DNA from: a virus
Reading direction: 5' to 3' (one strand)
Virus record (IMG/VR): IMGVR_UViG_3300025120_000223
Location: 1 to 35,195 of that record
Length of the DNA stretch: 35,195 nt
Shown: positions 2,011-35,140 of the stretch, one piece after another
Position numbering within the stretch: position 1 is the first letter of the stretch
How the letters are laid out: each line of letters begins with the position of its first letter
The notes under the pieces: model-generated
What the model saw: only the letters and a program-made list of their open reading frames with translations
Told to the model about the DNA's origin: nothing
Databases searched by the model: none
Translations under genes and position numbers: made by a program

Positions 2011-3921
2011 CTATCCTAGTTTTCCTACTCCTAATAGTTCTATTCCTAATCCTACTCCAGATGTTGAAGTTTGTATTACTTTACTACCTCTAAATCTAAC
2101 TAAGCAATAGCTTGTAACAGAACCTCTAGGACTTATCTCCTCAATAGGACTGCTAACATTTTCTATTATACCTCTTAATAAAGTATCTGGTCTGAATATC
2201 TCTAATTGAACATTCTTACCTTCTCTGTTTCTTAATGCCTGGTAAACCAAATCACCTTGACCATTGACTCTTAGTGCTTTCCTAAATGGTCTTTCTACTT
2301 GGTCAGATATATTAATAGGCATATCTACAACTAAGTCATTAACTAACTGGAAACCTCTAATAGCAAAAGCTAACATCTCTGGTGTCTGGGTGACATCATC
2401 TGTATTAAGTTCTATTCTACCTGCTATCCATCTACCATCTACCAAAGTCATAACCTCTTCATCCCCACCAGTACCAGAAAATATAGATACTTGTTCGGAC
2501 CATGTAGTAGCAGTTGGATTGTTTATGTCAGAAGCAATAGTAGAACTAAACAACTTTACTGAACCAGAATTTACTACATTGGTATTTAGTTTTGCACCTA
2601 CCCACTGTTTCTTTTCTGATGTAAAGAAATCAGCAAGTGGTGTAATGATATATCCTGTAGCAACATAGTTTGTACTCTCTCTGTATGAACCTCCAGCAGA
2701 TACAGTTGCAAACAATCTGTCAGAATAAACAGCTATACCTTTTACTATTCCGCTTTCAGCAAACTCTAAGTCTCTAGCTATACCACCTGTTGGTAAGTAG
2801 TATCGCCACAAATTAGTTTTACTAGCGCTATCAATAATACCTGTGTAGATACTATCTCTTGTTGATATGATTCTGTAAGGTGCCTGGTCTAGTGTAGAAG
2901 AACCATCACCCCATTGTTTTATAAGCTGCGCATTAATTAAGACATATAGATTATTAGCATTAGTTATCTCTGCTCTATACAATCTACCTATCTTTCCACT
3001 AGCTGTGTTTTGATAAGTACCATAAAATATAAATCCTTGTGCTGCATCTATTGCATTAGGTACTTCACCTTCTACAAAAGTCTGACCTTTCACTGTTAAG
3101 GTAGAAGATTCATCAGCTAAAGAATATATATATCCATCATCTGCACATGCTAAGACTACCGCACCACCATCTGTAACATCTTTCCAAGAACTACCTGTTG
3201 GTAATGCTTTGATTGTTGCTGGATTAGAAGTACCTGTTACTTCATAAAGTTCTCCATTGGTGCCACTTGCTACTAATCGACCTTTCATACTCCATATATT
3301 TTCAAAAGTTTTGTGGTTATTATGTACTACATAACTACCAGCACTGTTCCTTATATAAATATCTCCATTAGCTACTAGGTATAATTTAGTTCCTAAGATA
3401 GCTATTCCAGTAATGTTGTTACCACCACTAGGAGTACCATCATCTGTAGCATTACCTGTTAGCGGAGTTGCTATTTTTTTTAAAATTGGACCAGAAGAAT
3501 AAAATATTTCTCCACCTAACTCTTGCATATAAAGATTTGTTTGAGTAGATGTTTGTACTTCATCAGTATCATGTAGTAAAGATACTTTGTATTCTTCACC
3601 AGCTTCTTTGCCACTAAAGACATCGATACCTTTGCTATCCCAAAACCTTGAGAAATCTGTATCAGCTGCGTTTCTCCTATGTGCTTTATCTAAACCACTA
3701 CCTCCAGCAAAATCTGTCCTAGAGAATATCTGACCAAACTCTTGTTGGAAATCTTCTGGTGTTTCTGATGTTTGTATAGCTTGTGCCTGGAGAGGAGCAG
3801 TGTTTATATTCATCTGCCTTCCTGGTCCAGCAGCAAAGCGTAAGAATAAATCATCTAGGTTTGCTTCGAATCCTTGTGCTTTAGGTTCAGATGTATTAGA
3901 AGGTGATGGAAGTACAGACAT
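2011..3921 (-). CDS. Tail protein, beta-propeller-like (636 aa)
   Basis: 636-residue protein between the connector-like gene and the fibre. The N-terminal 100 residues are polar and look helical. From about residue 110 to 440 it has repeated short beta-strand blocks with GxxLYLV, GRLVASG, GYIYSLAD and IFYGTY motifs, typical of a beta-propeller. The C-terminal 200 residues are again beta-rich. Its ATG overlaps the stop of the preceding gene (TAATG), so translation is probably coupled. By position (capsid, connector, this gene, fibre) it may be the tail nozzle or tube protein of a short tail, in the place of T7 gp12, but I see no sequence motif proving that. Confidence 0.6.
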   Translation of the reverse strand: MSVLPSPSNTSEPKAQGFEANLDDLFLRFAAGPGRQMNINTAPLQAQAIQTSETPEDFQQEFGQIFSRTDFAGGSGLDKAHRRNAADTDFSRFWDSKGIDVFSGKEAGEEYKVSLLHDTDEVQTSTQTNLYMQELGGEIFYSSGPILKKIATPLTGNATDDGTPSGGNNITGIAILGTKLYLVANGDIYIRNSAGSYVVHNNHKTFENIWSMKGRLVASGTNGELYEVTGTSNPATIKALPTGSSWKDVTDGGAVVLACADDGYIYSLADESSTLTVKGQTFVEGEVPNAIDAAQGFIFYGTYQNTASGKIGRLYRAEITNANNLYVLINAQLIKQWGDGSSTLDQAPYRIISTRDSIYTGIIDSASKTNLWRYYLPTGGIARDLEFAESGIVKGIAVYSDRLFATVSAGGSYRESTNYVATGYIITPLADFFTSEKKQWVGAKLNTNVVNSGSVKLFSSTIASDINNPTATTWSEQVSIFSGTGGDEEVMTLVDGRWIAGRIELNTDDVTQTPEMLAFAIRGFQLVNDLVVDMPINISDQVERPFRKALRVNGQGDLVYQALRNREGKNVQLEIFRPDTLLRGIIENVSSPIEEISPRGSVTSYCLVRFRGSKVIQTSTSGVGLGIELLGVGKLG

Positions 3922-4823
3922 TACGCACTATAGTTGACATTACTTATTGCTACTGCTTGTGGGTATAAGCTTCTTAAATCTCCTCTAGCTTCATCTATTA
4001 ATAATGACCTTAATCTAAGTAGTGCATTTCTTAGTCTTTCACCAGAACCTACTGGGTAACTTTCACTAGCAAGTTTCTCTGTAATAAATTCTTGCGTTGA
4101 AGCATCTATATCTGTTGCTCCCATAATATCTGCAACTGCACCAACCATAACTATTTGTTGGTAAGAATCTTCTAACAAACAAACTGTAACTAAGTCATCT
4201 GTTTCAGAAGATGGTCTAGCAAATTTTCTTTTAACAACTAAATATACTTCTTTACCATTAGTTGTATTACTAAACTGTACAGCTGCTCCAGTACTAGATG
4301 GAGGAAAATTAGTAAGTAACTCTATACCAGCTGAAGTGTATTGGGACCCAGCTGAATTTTGTACATAAGAGTTTATTACTGATACTGTTGTCGCTGGTAC
4401 TTCTGCATGAGTAGAAATAGAAGTTACTGTTACGTTAGCGACATTATATAAAGTTGGATACAATCTATCAATGTTATCTGCTACTGCATCGAATACAGAT
4501 TTTCTAGGAAACGTAGGATTTACATATAAGTTTGCTTCATCTGCATGAGAAGCTGCTGATGTACCTGCATATCCTCTTGATACAGTAAGAGTTCTAGTAG
4601 AAGTATTAGATGCAGTAACTAGCATTAACTCCTGGTCAATTTCTATTAAGGCACCATTGCCTAAAAGATTTTCTTCTTCAGAACTAAACAAGTTATTTTC
4701 ATAAGTTAAAGAAGTAACTGAATTGTTTATAGCTCCTTCTAATCGTGAGAACGCAGATAAGTCATCTGGTTTATTTAAAAAATCTCTATATATTCTGTCC
4801 ACTAATGTGCTTACTGCTGCCAT
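3921..4823 (-). CDS. Putative head-tail connector or tail adaptor protein (300 aa)
   Basis: Lies directly after the capsid gene and is coupled to the next tail gene by TAATG. It starts at an ATG with GGAGATAT upstream. Residues about 50-95 hold IEIDQELMLVTAS followed by TLTVSRGYAGTSAASH, a pattern seen in phage structural proteins encoded beside SU10-type capsid genes. The C-terminal 70 residues look helical and rich in Leu/Arg. No enzyme motif. In T7-like phages the gene between capsid and nozzle encodes the tail adaptor (gp11), so adaptor/connector is the best guess, from order rather than homology. Confidence 0.5.
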   Translation of the reverse strand: MAAVSTLVDRIYRDFLNKPDDLSAFSRLEGAINNSVTSLTYENNLFSSEEENLLGNGALIEIDQELMLVTASNTSTRTLTVSRGYAGTSAASHADEANLYVNPTFPRKSVFDAVADNIDRLYPTLYNVANVTVTSISTHAEVPATTVSVINSYVQNSAGSQYTSAGIELLTNFPPSSTGAAVQFSNTTNGKEVYLVVKRKFARPSSETDDLVTVCLLEDSYQQIVMVGAVADIMGATDIDASTQEFITEKLASESYPVGSGERLRNALLRLRSLLIDEARGDLRSLYPQAVAISNVNYSA

Positions 4824-6332: not shown

Positions 6333-6561
6333 TTTTTCTCCTCTCCCAGATTTTCTACTAACTACATTATCCTGGGGTAAACAATGCGATAGGCGACTAG
6401 TTATATATAAGTACAATGAGAATAGTCAGCCACTTCTAGCTGTACTGAACGAAGCGATTTAAATACGCAGCTTACACGCTTGCAATAAGCTGGAGGTGCA
6501 GCATCAATTTATATTCGGAGAAAGCCGCAATCCGATACTTTAATTATATACTATAAAACTA

Positions 6562-6589
6562 AAATAGTGGGGTTTTATCCCCACTATTT
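6562..6589 (-). terminator. 11-bp perfect hairpin with U-rich tail on the minus strand
   Basis: AAATAGTGGGG pairs with CCCCACTATTT around a 6-base loop. Read on the minus strand it is followed by TTAGTTTTATAG, so it resembles an intrinsic terminator in that direction. On the plus strand the flank is not U-rich. It lies about 60 bases past the minus-strand TATAAT at 6652-6647 and 230 bases before the scaffold start, so it would end a short leader RNA or attenuate the capsid message. Confidence 0.6.
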
Positions 6590-6646
6590 ATACGTTCACG
6601 AAAGGAAGGTTATCTAATCGATTGCTCGAAGAGAGTCCTTAATATT

Positions 6647-25280: not shown

Positions 25281-25391
25281 ATGGGTAACAATTTTACTTG
25301 TGTTAATTGCGATACACTGTTCCAATTTACTAACGACATACACAAAGAATTGTGTATGGATTGTTGTAATAAAATATTCGAGGTTAAGTAA
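25281..25391 (+). CDS. Zinc-ribbon micro-protein (36 aa)
   Basis: Cys7-x2-Cys10 (FTCVNCDTLF) and Cys25-x2-Cys28-Cys29 (ELCMDCCNKIF) give a complete zinc ribbon in 36 residues. AAGGGGG lies upstream and its stop overlaps the next ATG (TAATG). Likely nucleic-acid or protein binding; probably co-translated with the peptidase-like protein. Confidence 0.68.
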   Translation: MGNNFTCVNCDTLFQFTNDIHKELCMDCCNKIFEVK

Positions 25392-31974: not shown

Positions 31975-32253
31975 TTAGCTTATTTTTTTCTTTGCGTATG
32001 TCTTGATTACTGCAAGTGCAGCTCCACCACCAGCTAATGCAGCTAACTCTAATGTATTTGCATCAACAGATATCAAGGGCGCAACAACTAAAGCTCCAAG
32101 GAATGCTTCAACGAAAGTCCATATAGTTCTTTCAAGCATATCTTTTAAGTCTTTACTCATCTTATACTCCCACGAATCGGACCAAGGTGTCCACCATACA
32201 TCCTTCTTGAATGTACCATCTTGATTTCTTTTTCTTTTAAATCTTTCAAACAT
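31975..32253 (-). CDS. Holin, r1t-like (92 aa)
   Basis: Charged N-terminus (FERFKRKRNQ), KDLKDMLERTIWTF, first membrane segment about residues 44-62 (IWTFVEAFLGALVVAPLIS), second about 66-84 (LELAALAGGGAALAVIKTY), basic C-terminus. The pattern 'D..ERT.wTF.EAFl...' followed by a Gly/Ala-rich second segment matches r1t-type phage holins. It makes membrane holes at the time of lysis. The ATG overlaps the stop of the DUF5675 gene (TAATG), so the two are translated together, as in a lysis cassette. Confidence 0.75.
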   Translation of the reverse strand: MFERFKRKRNQDGTFKKDVWWTPWSDSWEYKMSKDLKDMLERTIWTFVEAFLGALVVAPLISVDANTLELAALAGGGAALAVIKTYAKKKIS

Positions 32254-32849
32254 TATGTAATTATTCTACCCTTCAGCATTGCATTTGTTTTAATTACATT
32301 TCCATTTATCTCTTGAAGTTTTTCATATACGCTATCAGCTAGTATCATGTGGTCTTTAGCTTTGTTATCTTCACCATTAAGGTTTATCTTTGTATATTCT
32401 ATGGTGACATCATCACCTTTAAGTATTGCACCAGACACTTTAGGATATAGTTTCTTGTACGCATCTGCACTTGAGCCGACCATACCATTAAAGTTTACAT
32501 CTAAGTCCTGTTGAGAATTTCCTGTGATGAGACACCCACTGGTATGCTCATCGTTGTTCCCTTGGTGGATTAATATAAATTGGAACCCTGGTACATCTTG
32601 TAGCCACAACATCCCACGATGCCAGGTAGGATATTTCTTGGTATAACGTGTATTAAATGACCCAACTGTCCTAAGTTTAAGTTTGTATGTGCCTTCTGGT
32701 ATGCAGGTTTCGTGCATTACTTTGACTGCTTGGTACTGGTCCTCTAAAGTATAACACTCAAACTTACCATCAATAAACAGCATCCCATTAGTTGCATCCT
32801 TACCAAATTGTGTCCTAACTACTTGCAGTTTCACAGTGTTCACTCCCAT
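32253..32849 (-). CDS. DUF5675-like protein, candidate lysis enzyme (198 aa)
   Basis: Contains CIPEGTYKLKL (about 49-59), RGMLWLQDVPGFQFILIHQG (78-97) and TSGCLITG (103-110), matching the DUF5675 family (a small beta protein with conserved IH.GN and GC motifs). His95 and Cys106 are arranged like the His/Cys of L,D-transpeptidase-type enzymes (HG...GC), suggesting peptidoglycan work, but activity of the family is not established to my knowledge. Directly coupled to the holin. Start: ATG 32849 has a weak ribosome binding site; GTG at 32834 has GGGAG before it and is an alternative. Confidence 0.72.
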   Translation of the reverse strand: MGVNTVKLQVVRTQFGKDATNGMLFIDGKFECYTLEDQYQAVKVMHETCIPEGTYKLKLRTVGSFNTRYTKKYPTWHRGMLWLQDVPGFQFILIHQGNNDEHTSGCLITGNSQQDLDVNFNGMVGSSADAYKKLYPKVSGAILKGDDVTIEYTKINLNGEDNKAKDHMILADSVYEKLQEINGNVIKTNAMLKGRIIT

Positions 32850-32908
32850 ACTTACAGTTACATATAGTTATATTAGTATAGTCATTGTCAGCTAGATATG
32901 TACTGCAT

Positions 32909-33391
32909 TTAATGTCCATGACCAGCTGCTTCTAAATAAGCTAGTCGAGATTTCAAATCGTTGAGTTCCCACATATTATTGTTAACACTTTGTATTTGTG
33001 TTTCTACTCTAGTCAAAGAATCATTAAGGTCTTGATACTCCCACTTTTCTAGTAAATAATATCTATCTAAATCAAACCCACCATCTCTAACTGTTTGCTC
33101 TAAGTTATATAAGTTAGCTTGTAAGGTAGCCATCTCTTCAGTGAACCTACCTACATTCTGTGCAGCCATCTCTAATGATTGTATCTTCTCATACAGTACA
33201 GCTATATCATTCTGTACATAAGTTGATTCTTTAAGGGTCAAAAATTCATACTCAATGTTATTCATCCTGTCATCAATTCCTGTAAGAGTTTCAATCATAG
33301 CATTAAGAGATTGAATACCTGCACCAACAGAGGACATAAGAGCTATACCAGTTACTATTAAACCTAAGTTATTTTTTAATTTTGATAACAT
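32909..33391 (-). CDS. Membrane-anchored coiled-coil protein (160 aa)
   Basis: One N-terminal membrane segment (LGLIVTGIALMSSVGAGI, about residues 9-26), then heptad-rich coiled coil to the C-terminus (IDDRMNNIEYEFLTLKES, MATLQANLYNLEQTV, LKSRLAYLEAAG). It ends GHGH. Anchor plus long periplasmic coiled coil is the shape of i-spanins, and the location among lysis genes fits. No lipoprotein o-spanin is seen. Could alternatively be a structural or fibre-linked protein. Confidence 0.6.
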   Translation of the reverse strand: MLSKLKNNLGLIVTGIALMSSVGAGIQSLNAMIETLTGIDDRMNNIEYEFLTLKESTYVQNDIAVLYEKIQSLEMAAQNVGRFTEEMATLQANLYNLEQTVRDGGFDLDRYYLLEKWEYQDLNDSLTRVETQIQSVNNNMWELNDLKSRLAYLEAAGHGH

Positions 33392-33444
33392 TACTTACCT
33401 ATTGGACAAGTGTTACACATACCAGTACATAGACCACAAATCAT
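33391..33444 (-). CDS. 17-residue tetracysteine micro-protein
   Basis: Complete frame MICGLCTGMCNTCPIGK with Cys3, Cys6, Cys10, Cys13 (CxxC-x3-CxxC). Its ATG overlaps the upstream stop and its TAA overlaps the downstream ATG, both as TAATG. AGGTGG lies 3 bases upstream. Exact fit between two genes makes translation likely. Four Cys in eleven residues could bind a zinc ion or iron-sulphur cluster. Confidence 0.6.
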   Translation of the reverse strand: MICGLCTGMCNTCPIGK

Positions 33445-33656
33445 TAGCCACCTATCTTCCAGATTATCTCTGTAATCTCTGAGTCAATACCTTGTATGAT
33501 GTTCAATACATCATTGAGTTTGCTGTTTGAATTTATAACCTCTACTTGTAAGGCAGTAACTTCTTGTTGTAAATCATTAACTGTTTTAAACAACCAACCA
33601 ACAAGAGCAGCTAAACCACCTTGTAATACTTGACTTAAATTTACTTGTGCTTTCAT
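33444..33656 (-). CDS. Small protein with membrane segment and coiled coil (70 aa)
   Basis: AGGGAT lies before ATG. A short hydrophobic stretch (VLQGGLAALVGWLF, about 10-24) is followed by heptads (TVNDLQQEVTALQVEV, LNDVLNIIQGIDSEI). Same design as the 160-aa neighbour but shorter; both could be parts of one membrane complex, for instance holin/antiholin or spanin partners. Confidence 0.6.
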   Translation of the reverse strand: MKAQVNLSQVLQGGLAALVGWLFKTVNDLQQEVTALQVEVINSNSKLNDVLNIIQGIDSEITEIIWKIGG

Positions 33657-33662
33657 ATATCC

Positions 33663-33830
33663 CTACATATTTAGACTACCAACAATTAATATAACTGTGG
33701 CAACCAATCCCAATACTTTATAAAATTCTGATTTATCTAACTTCTCATCTAGCTTCTTATCTATGTCATCTAACTTATCAAATATCATTTGATTCAATTC
33801 TTTCTGTGTAAAGCCATTGGAAGCTGTCAT
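33663..33830 (-). CDS. Tail-anchored micro-protein (55 aa)
   Basis: ATG overlaps the upstream stop (TAATG). Begins MTASNGFTQKELNQMIFDKL, continues with a charged heptad segment (DDIDKKLDEKLDKSE), then a C-terminal membrane segment (FYKVLGLVATVILIVGSL). Small C-terminally anchored coiled-coil protein. Could be a holin or antiholin component. Confidence 0.6.
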   Translation of the reverse strand: MTASNGFTQKELNQMIFDKLDDIDKKLDEKLDKSEFYKVLGLVATVILIVGSLNM

Positions 33831-34004: not shown

Positions 34005-34304
34005 TTAAGCAGGTTTAGGATTATCTGATTTAACTTGTGTTCTTAATGCTTGTAAATCTGTAAGCGTATCGCCACCATCTAGTAATGCGTGTATGCAATC
34101 TTGTAATGATGGATATTCTGCTTGTCTATTTCTTTCCCAATCTTTAGCATCATACTCTGTTTGTAACCTAGCTTGTTCAGCAGCAATAGCTTCATCAGTA
34201 GGTTGTGTTATATCTTTACTATGCCATTCTGTTATTTTTTCATTAATAACAACAAACTTTGCAGTAGGATGTAAAGATTTTATTGCATCTTCTATTGTTA
34301 TCAT
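34005..34304 (-). CDS. Fibre-associated chaperone-like protein, copy 2 (99 aa)
   Basis: ATGA overlap with the adhesin gene. Helical with conserved end: NRQAEYPSLQDCIHALLDGG ... VKSDNPKPA. The YPS...(D/Q)...GG/DG...K..PKP signature matches small proteins encoded beside phage fibre genes, thought to assist fibre assembly. A paralogue lies at 34853. In fibre systems each fibre is often followed by its own chaperone. Confidence 0.58.
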   Translation of the reverse strand: MITIEDAIKSLHPTAKFVVINEKITEWHSKDITQPTDEAIAAEQARLQTEYDAKDWERNRQAEYPSLQDCIHALLDGGDTLTDLQALRTQVKSDNPKPA

Positions 34305-34852: not shown

Positions 34853-35140
34853 CTAAGGTTTAGGGTACTTATCCTTTGTTGTTTGTATTGTAGCTTTCCA
34901 AGCATCAAGTCCATTATGAAAAATATCATCAAGCTGGTCTGCTATTGATGGATAATCATACTTTCTATTTTCTTGTATTTCTAACTCTGCAATCTTTGCA
35001 TTGACTTCTTCTTCACTAGGCATAATAGCTGTATCATCATTGAGTTTTAGATTAGAATAGACTTCTCCATTTTTTGTGTCAATCCATCCATACCATTGAT
35101 GTTTGCCTATATTAAAATATGCCAATGCTTCTTGTAACAT
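34853..35140 (-). CDS. Fibre-associated chaperone-like protein, copy 1 (95 aa)
   Basis: AGGAGAT lies before the ATG, which overlaps the upstream stop (TAATG). The first half is a beta segment (MLQEALAYFNIGKHQWYGWI); the second half is helical with RKYDYPSIADQLDDIFHNGL and ends KDKYPKP. The 'YPS..dQLd.i...G..aW...I...K.kYPKP' pattern is common beside phage fibre genes. Paralogue of the 34005 gene. Confidence 0.6.
   Translation of the reverse strand: MLQEALAYFNIGKHQWYGWIDTKNGEVYSNLKLNDDTAIMPSEEEVNAKIAELEIQENRKYDYPSIADQLDDIFHNGLDAWKATIQTTKDKYPKP

Follow-up and report, generated by a model that had tools for sequence, protein, structure and literature searches.

The minus strand of a virus record carries a frame of only 17 codons between two genes, and this locus raises the question of whether so short a frame encodes a protein and what such a protein would do. 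The window, that is, the whole stretch of DNA analyzed, comprises 35,195 bases with 36% G+C. On the minus strand, positions 33444-33391 read as an ATG-to-TAA frame encoding MICGLCTGMCNTCPIGK, in the context ...AAGATAGGTGGC TAATG ATTTGTGGTCTATGTACTGGTATGTGTAACACTTGTCCAATAGGTAAG TAATG TTATC.... One base is common to the upstream stop and the ATG of this frame, and one base is common to its TAA and the downstream ATG. As given in the preliminary description, the frame is a tetracysteine frame with the layout CxxC-x3-CxxC (CX2CX3CX2CP) that shares one base at each end, exactly as the sequence reads, and both of its immediate neighbours, described there as membrane proteins, are indeed predicted to be such. 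The features of this region are as follows.

31975..32253, minus strand: holin-like protein (phrog_443, lysis/holin, E=3.5e-7)
32253..32849, minus strand: DUF5675 protein, peptidoglycan-enzyme-like (Pfam PF18925, E=6.9e-30)
32815..32919, minus strand: small Cys gene of class E, MDIKCSTYLADNDYTNITICNCKYGSEHCETASS (34 aa); overlaps both neighbours; cluster of 73 members across loci
32909..33391, minus strand: TMcc160, downstream gene, 160 aa; N-terminal hydrophobic helix and long coiled-coil-like region
33391..33444, minus strand: tiny gene of class A, MICGLCTGMCNTCPIGK (17 aa; coordinates include the stop); four Cys in 17/17 distinct relatives
33448..33452, minus strand: GGTGG, Shine-Dalgarno-like site 3 bases 5' of the ATG, within the codons for the terminal Gly-Gly of the upstream gene
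33444..33656, minus strand: TM70cc, upstream gene, 70 aa; N-terminal hydrophobic helix and coiled-coil-like tail; no named family
33663..33830, minus strand: TM57-cluster protein, 55 aa, C-terminal hydrophobic helix
33830..33976, minus strand: TM47-cluster protein, 48 aa, same module, with a CC pair

The two TAATG junctions had been taken by themselves to make chance unlikely. In a first-order Markov simulation, 6.55 stop/ATG-locked frames of 8–40 aa are expected per window and 3 are observed; because locked frames are this common by chance, the locking is no evidence for a gene. Adding the requirement of four or more Cys lowers the expectation to 0.055 locked frames per window, against 2 observed. 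Nor is the locking a fixed property of the gene, as class A in other relatives stops short of its downstream neighbour or extends 20 nt into it. A second locked Cys ORF of the window, MGNNFTCVNCDTLFQFTNDIHKELCMDCCNKIFEVK (25281-25391, plus strand; 36 aa, five Cys, zinc-ribbon-like), ends where the ORF at 25391 starts.

Relatives were retrieved via the neighbour proteins rather than via the peptide, with 80 loci each obtained by the 160-aa protein, the 70-aa protein and TM62, a further small membrane protein that such modules encode. A class A match in these viral loci was allowed up to 15 mismatches in 45 bases, and Cys were not required. The four Cys and the open frame are kept in all 17 distinct DNA versions, which show as many as 12 differences in 45 bases. 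Under random substitution with 9–12 mismatches, the four Cys and the open frame survive in 1.5–4% per sequence, a figure to be read with the relatives being non-independent. The minimum changes at codon positions 1, 2 and 3 number 7, 5 and 16, respectively. The Cys codons alternate between TGT and TGC; the Cys positions are invariant and loop residues vary, and non-Cys Ile, Leu, Gly and Pro are conserved as well (MICGLC-G-C--CP). The Shine-Dalgarno-like site is GGTGG or GGAGG in relatives. Furthermore, a pattern scan of 2.9 million viral contigs located class A (CGLCxGxCxxCP, 17–26 aa) as a stand-alone frame on 63 contigs in several gene neighbourhoods; with the first pattern used, about 19 of 53 matches were unrelated frames. 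The variants extend to MICGLCSGSCATCPLGGGLINETHSS, which has 26 aa and lies in another neighbourhood, 5' of a DUF5675 gene. Based on conservation among relatives, and not on the TAATG junctions, the MICGLCTGMCNTCPIGK frame is almost certainly a genuine protein-coding gene. This agrees with the preliminary description, which had proposed a real gene with four conserved Cys; the loss of the Cys pattern or the stop codons that it named as evidence to the contrary occur in none of the 17 distinct versions.

The preliminary description missed that the MICGLCTGMCNTCPIGK gene is one among several interchangeable tiny Cys-rich genes. An unlabelled set of such genes, of 12 to 26 residues, is common to more than 200 uncultured virus contigs; MDCCGSGCCGGK is a peptide of this set named beside MICGLCTGMCNTCPIGK. 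Class B (MDCCGxGCCGG[K/R/N/S/E], including MDCCGxGCCGGK, 12 aa) lies on at least 120 contigs. All 119 of the matches read are stand-alone ORFs, 115 of them exactly 12 aa long and most with a Shine-Dalgarno-like site, and neighbour-based retrieval added the forms MSECCGNGCCGN, MDGCCGNGCCGGK and MNMCCGQGCCSGG. Class D (CxCxx[LI]CC[GA]CxLHC, 18–26 aa, six Cys and one His) was found on 113 contigs in the viral contig scan and frequently sits immediately 3' of class B. Class F is MDGCCKNCNCGG or MDCCGSCNCDGK, and class C, MIEFLIVMWLSVKKSKR, is hydrophobic, has no Cys and occurs alone or after A or B. Class E, with its window copy at 32919-32815, comprises peptides of 26–35 aa with ICNCKYG. In close relatives, the slot of class A is filled by class B, D, F or the hydrophobic class C, or it is empty. 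In about 40 of 50 distinct slots, the 70-aa gene is followed by a tiny gene from one of the classes A, B, C, D and F, and the content of the slot changes at least 16 times on the TMcc160 tree, on which many branches are weak, where 5 changes would suffice. In one locus (L141 3149-3259) and its relatives (cluster 27), the same slot holds a further small gene, also conserved, for MAKNDFILPDDMFTDNPKFVDTSQEFTDDCGDACKI, an acidic 36-aa protein with a C-terminal CGDAC.

The neighbours of the tiny genes include the holin-like protein (phrog_443), a DUF5675 or amidase-like protein and small membrane proteins. In uncultured tailed phages, the usual home of the tiny Cys genes is probably the lysis module, and the DUF5675 protein at 32253..32849 is a probable lysis enzyme, its lysis role being a prediction. 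Other placements were also observed: an amidase gene can follow class A, and class B is also found with head-tail genes on one side and a tail-tube gene on the other. The gene 3' of the tiny ORF varies between loci, with a gap of up to 357 nt. Across 44 viral records, a single class A gene is present in 5, class B in 31 and both in none; these records were picked mostly for carrying A or B, and the absence of co-occurrence is only indicative. Class B is single-copy in 30 of the 31 records; the remaining one has two lysis modules on one contig and a class B gene in each. Second class B copies in two further records (G018 and G036) were rejected, because each is an antisense match to a long open frame and lacks its own start. 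All contigs compared are metagenomic and mutually related.

Database searches placed none of these peptides in a family of known function. Neither Pfam nor NCBIfam, metallothionein families included, matched the class A or class D peptides of at least 20 aa, and PHROGs gave no match for the tiny classes long enough to scan apart from a weak class E match, in which the related form MCMVKTKEDGSFVQICNCKYGNCKEI matches phrog_26807, of unknown function (E=1.6e-4). The PDB search gave no credible relative (cytochrome c6, E=0.68). Among the cultured phage records searched, there was no carrier of a tiny class and no credible match to the peptides, and the portions examined of HTVC010P and HTVC026P contain none of the classes. 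Cultured relatives sought via TMcc160 and TM62 gave no match, and those sought via the terminase and DUF5675 proteins gave distant matches only. Literature searches by the letters of the peptide and on phage metallothioneins yielded no relevant paper. The set resembles the genes in a catalogue of small phage genes drawn from phage genomes worldwide (Fremin et al. 2022, as cited in PMC11323111), which, as far as that citation describes them, are small and mostly unannotated. Conserved genes down to 12 codons are thus abundant in environmental viruses and elude standard annotation and profile libraries, and the family sizes (at least 120 contigs for B, 113 for D and 63 for A) allow the minimal sequence of a functional gene to be tested.

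What these peptides might do is suggested by their Cys. The class A peptide has no signal sequence. Because of this and the reducing cytoplasm, metal binding appears likelier than disulphides for MICGLCTGMCNTCPIGK; a soluble metal-thiolate peptide is further suggested by the four to six close thiols and the free choice of Cys layouts. The layouts that share one slot differ, and thiols are the common feature of most; in class D, the motifs CxC, CCxC and HC are typical of metal-thiolate peptides. We infer metal binding, a cytoplasmic location, late expression and any lysis link for the tiny Cys peptides. The peptide would be translated from a polycistronic mRNA via Shine-Dalgarno-like sites and start-stop coupling and would act in trans, within the cytoplasm of infected cells. 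There, its four closely spaced thiolates might bind a soft metal, that is, Zn2+, Fe2+ or an Fe-S cluster, and as a miniature metallothionein it would hold or deliver metal late in infection, possibly buffering or supplying it while the host collapses. We give about an even chance to the proposal that the tiny Cys peptides are ultra-short, micro-metallothionein-like metal ligands acting in trans in late infection. A broader proposal, that the slot is a cassette for genes that would rank among the smallest conserved ones known, in which unrelated Cys layouts of 12–26 residues perform one job, that of a late soluble metal or Fe-S ligand, as a kind of product not described before, is held more tentatively and is rather doubtful. 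The occurrence of the Cys-free class C or an empty slot indicates that the slot is open to more than metal ligands and that the peptide is dispensable. The tiny Cys families point to metal and thiol handling as an unexplored side of late phage infection.

Similar to metallothioneins, the peptides are rich in Cys, which make up about one quarter or more of the residues (4/17 in A, 4/12 in B, and 6 in 18–26 in D), and they contain CC, CxC and CxxC motifs. Additionally, the commonest A and B forms lack aromatic residues, as do metallothioneins and small Cys-rich metal binders. In contrast, the tiny peptides are much shorter than metallothioneins, virus-borne and without a family match. Size is no obstacle to cluster binding, since a synthetic 16-mer with four Cys, the maquette Ac-KLCEGGCIACGACGGW-NH2, holds a [4Fe-4S] cluster (PMC10946529). 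This maquette is of similar length and likewise has four Cys and Gly-rich loops; however, it is synthetic and has CX2CX2C with a distant fourth Cys, a ferredoxin spacing called immutable for this maquette in that work, whereas class A has CX2CX3CX2C. Likewise, the bacterial-type ferredoxin [4Fe-4S] motif (CX2CX2C and a distal CP) does not describe the CX2CX3CX2CP of class A.

Among the alternatives, host takeover or anti-defence fares best, and we consider it unlikely. As a tiny ligand mimic, the Cys peptide would bind and inhibit a metalloprotein or thiol enzyme of the host, with the classes fitting different targets or hosts. In keeping with this, the classes are often swapped among close relatives and are nearly restricted to viral contigs; for class B, a scan of bacterial and archaeal contigs totalling 257 Gb gave one match, on a phage-like contig. 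The conserved non-Cys residues also exceed the needs of plain metal storage, and since Gly, Ile, Leu and Pro are conserved, a specific protein target for class A is possible. However, the genes are placed in lysis and head-tail modules and not in an early region.

Less probable still is a role as a redox or disulphide partner, in which the thiols would pair with the DUF5675 protein or with lysis proteins of the membrane and act as a lysis timer. Most copies do lie amid predicted membrane and lysis genes, and the DUF5675 protein of the window carries three Cys. Against such pairing, the adjacent TM70cc and TMcc160 contain no Cys at all, the peptide lacks a signal sequence, and class A is also found before an amidase gene and class B before a tail-tube gene.

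A cis-acting leader is very unlikely. Here, translation of the Cys codons would sense charged tRNA-Cys, followed by TAATG re-initiation on the next gene. Start-stop coupling is found at many junctions, and SAR11-type hosts require reduced sulphur, both of which count for such a leader; short nucleotide matches of the neighbouring genes to Pelagibacter phages give a hint of SAR11 hosts and the sea. Polycysteine leader ORFs in mycobacteria are reported to act so (Canestrari et al. 2020, cited in PMC13236596), and, within what is cited of that report, they are similarly very short Cys-rich ORFs 5' of a gene. The phage ORFs differ from these leaders, as described there, in their conserved loop residues, their varied downstream gene, their usual occurrence once in a genome and their several Cys layouts. 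A Cys-sensing leader would have one regulated gene immediately downstream, whereas the gene here differs widely and may begin up to 357 nt away; it would also constrain the sensor codons alone, whereas Ile, Leu, Gly and Pro are conserved besides Cys. Moreover, the tiny gene is normally present once per genome wherever it is placed, which speaks for a diffusible peptide rather than a leader acting in cis, and the site has no RNA structure (z = -0.08). A functionless chance frame, for which the commonness of locked tiny frames in simulation would speak, has a negligible probability and is in effect refuted by the 17/17 retention of the four Cys, set against the low survival under random substitution, and by the stand-alone class A ORFs across contigs.

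Several further arrangements were observed. A phage-like contig with class B (L254) is binned in an Actinomycetota genome (isolate RS345), which might reflect misbinning or hint at a host. On one contig of 44,106 bases (L544 and L545), the lysis module is present twice, complete both times; the two versions have diverged, and genes for holin, DUF5675, class B and class E occur in both, which would reflect duplication or a chimera. On a short contig (L186, minus strand 3755-4560), class B occurs with the class F-like MSKEKCCESCSCGAGEE and a diverged, GTG-started class A gene, VICGFCSGVCESCPISGKN. Arg-rich tiny proteins (MPKGSYGSGSGGRRRRGRRRRRRGMR and similar) lie immediately 5' of class B and the tail-tube gene (L546 2023-2103, minus strand; L215 ~6515-6619). 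Finally, the window itself contains two paralogous small genes on the minus strand (34005-34304 and 34853-35140), both matching phrog_9114 and flanking a 176-aa gene.
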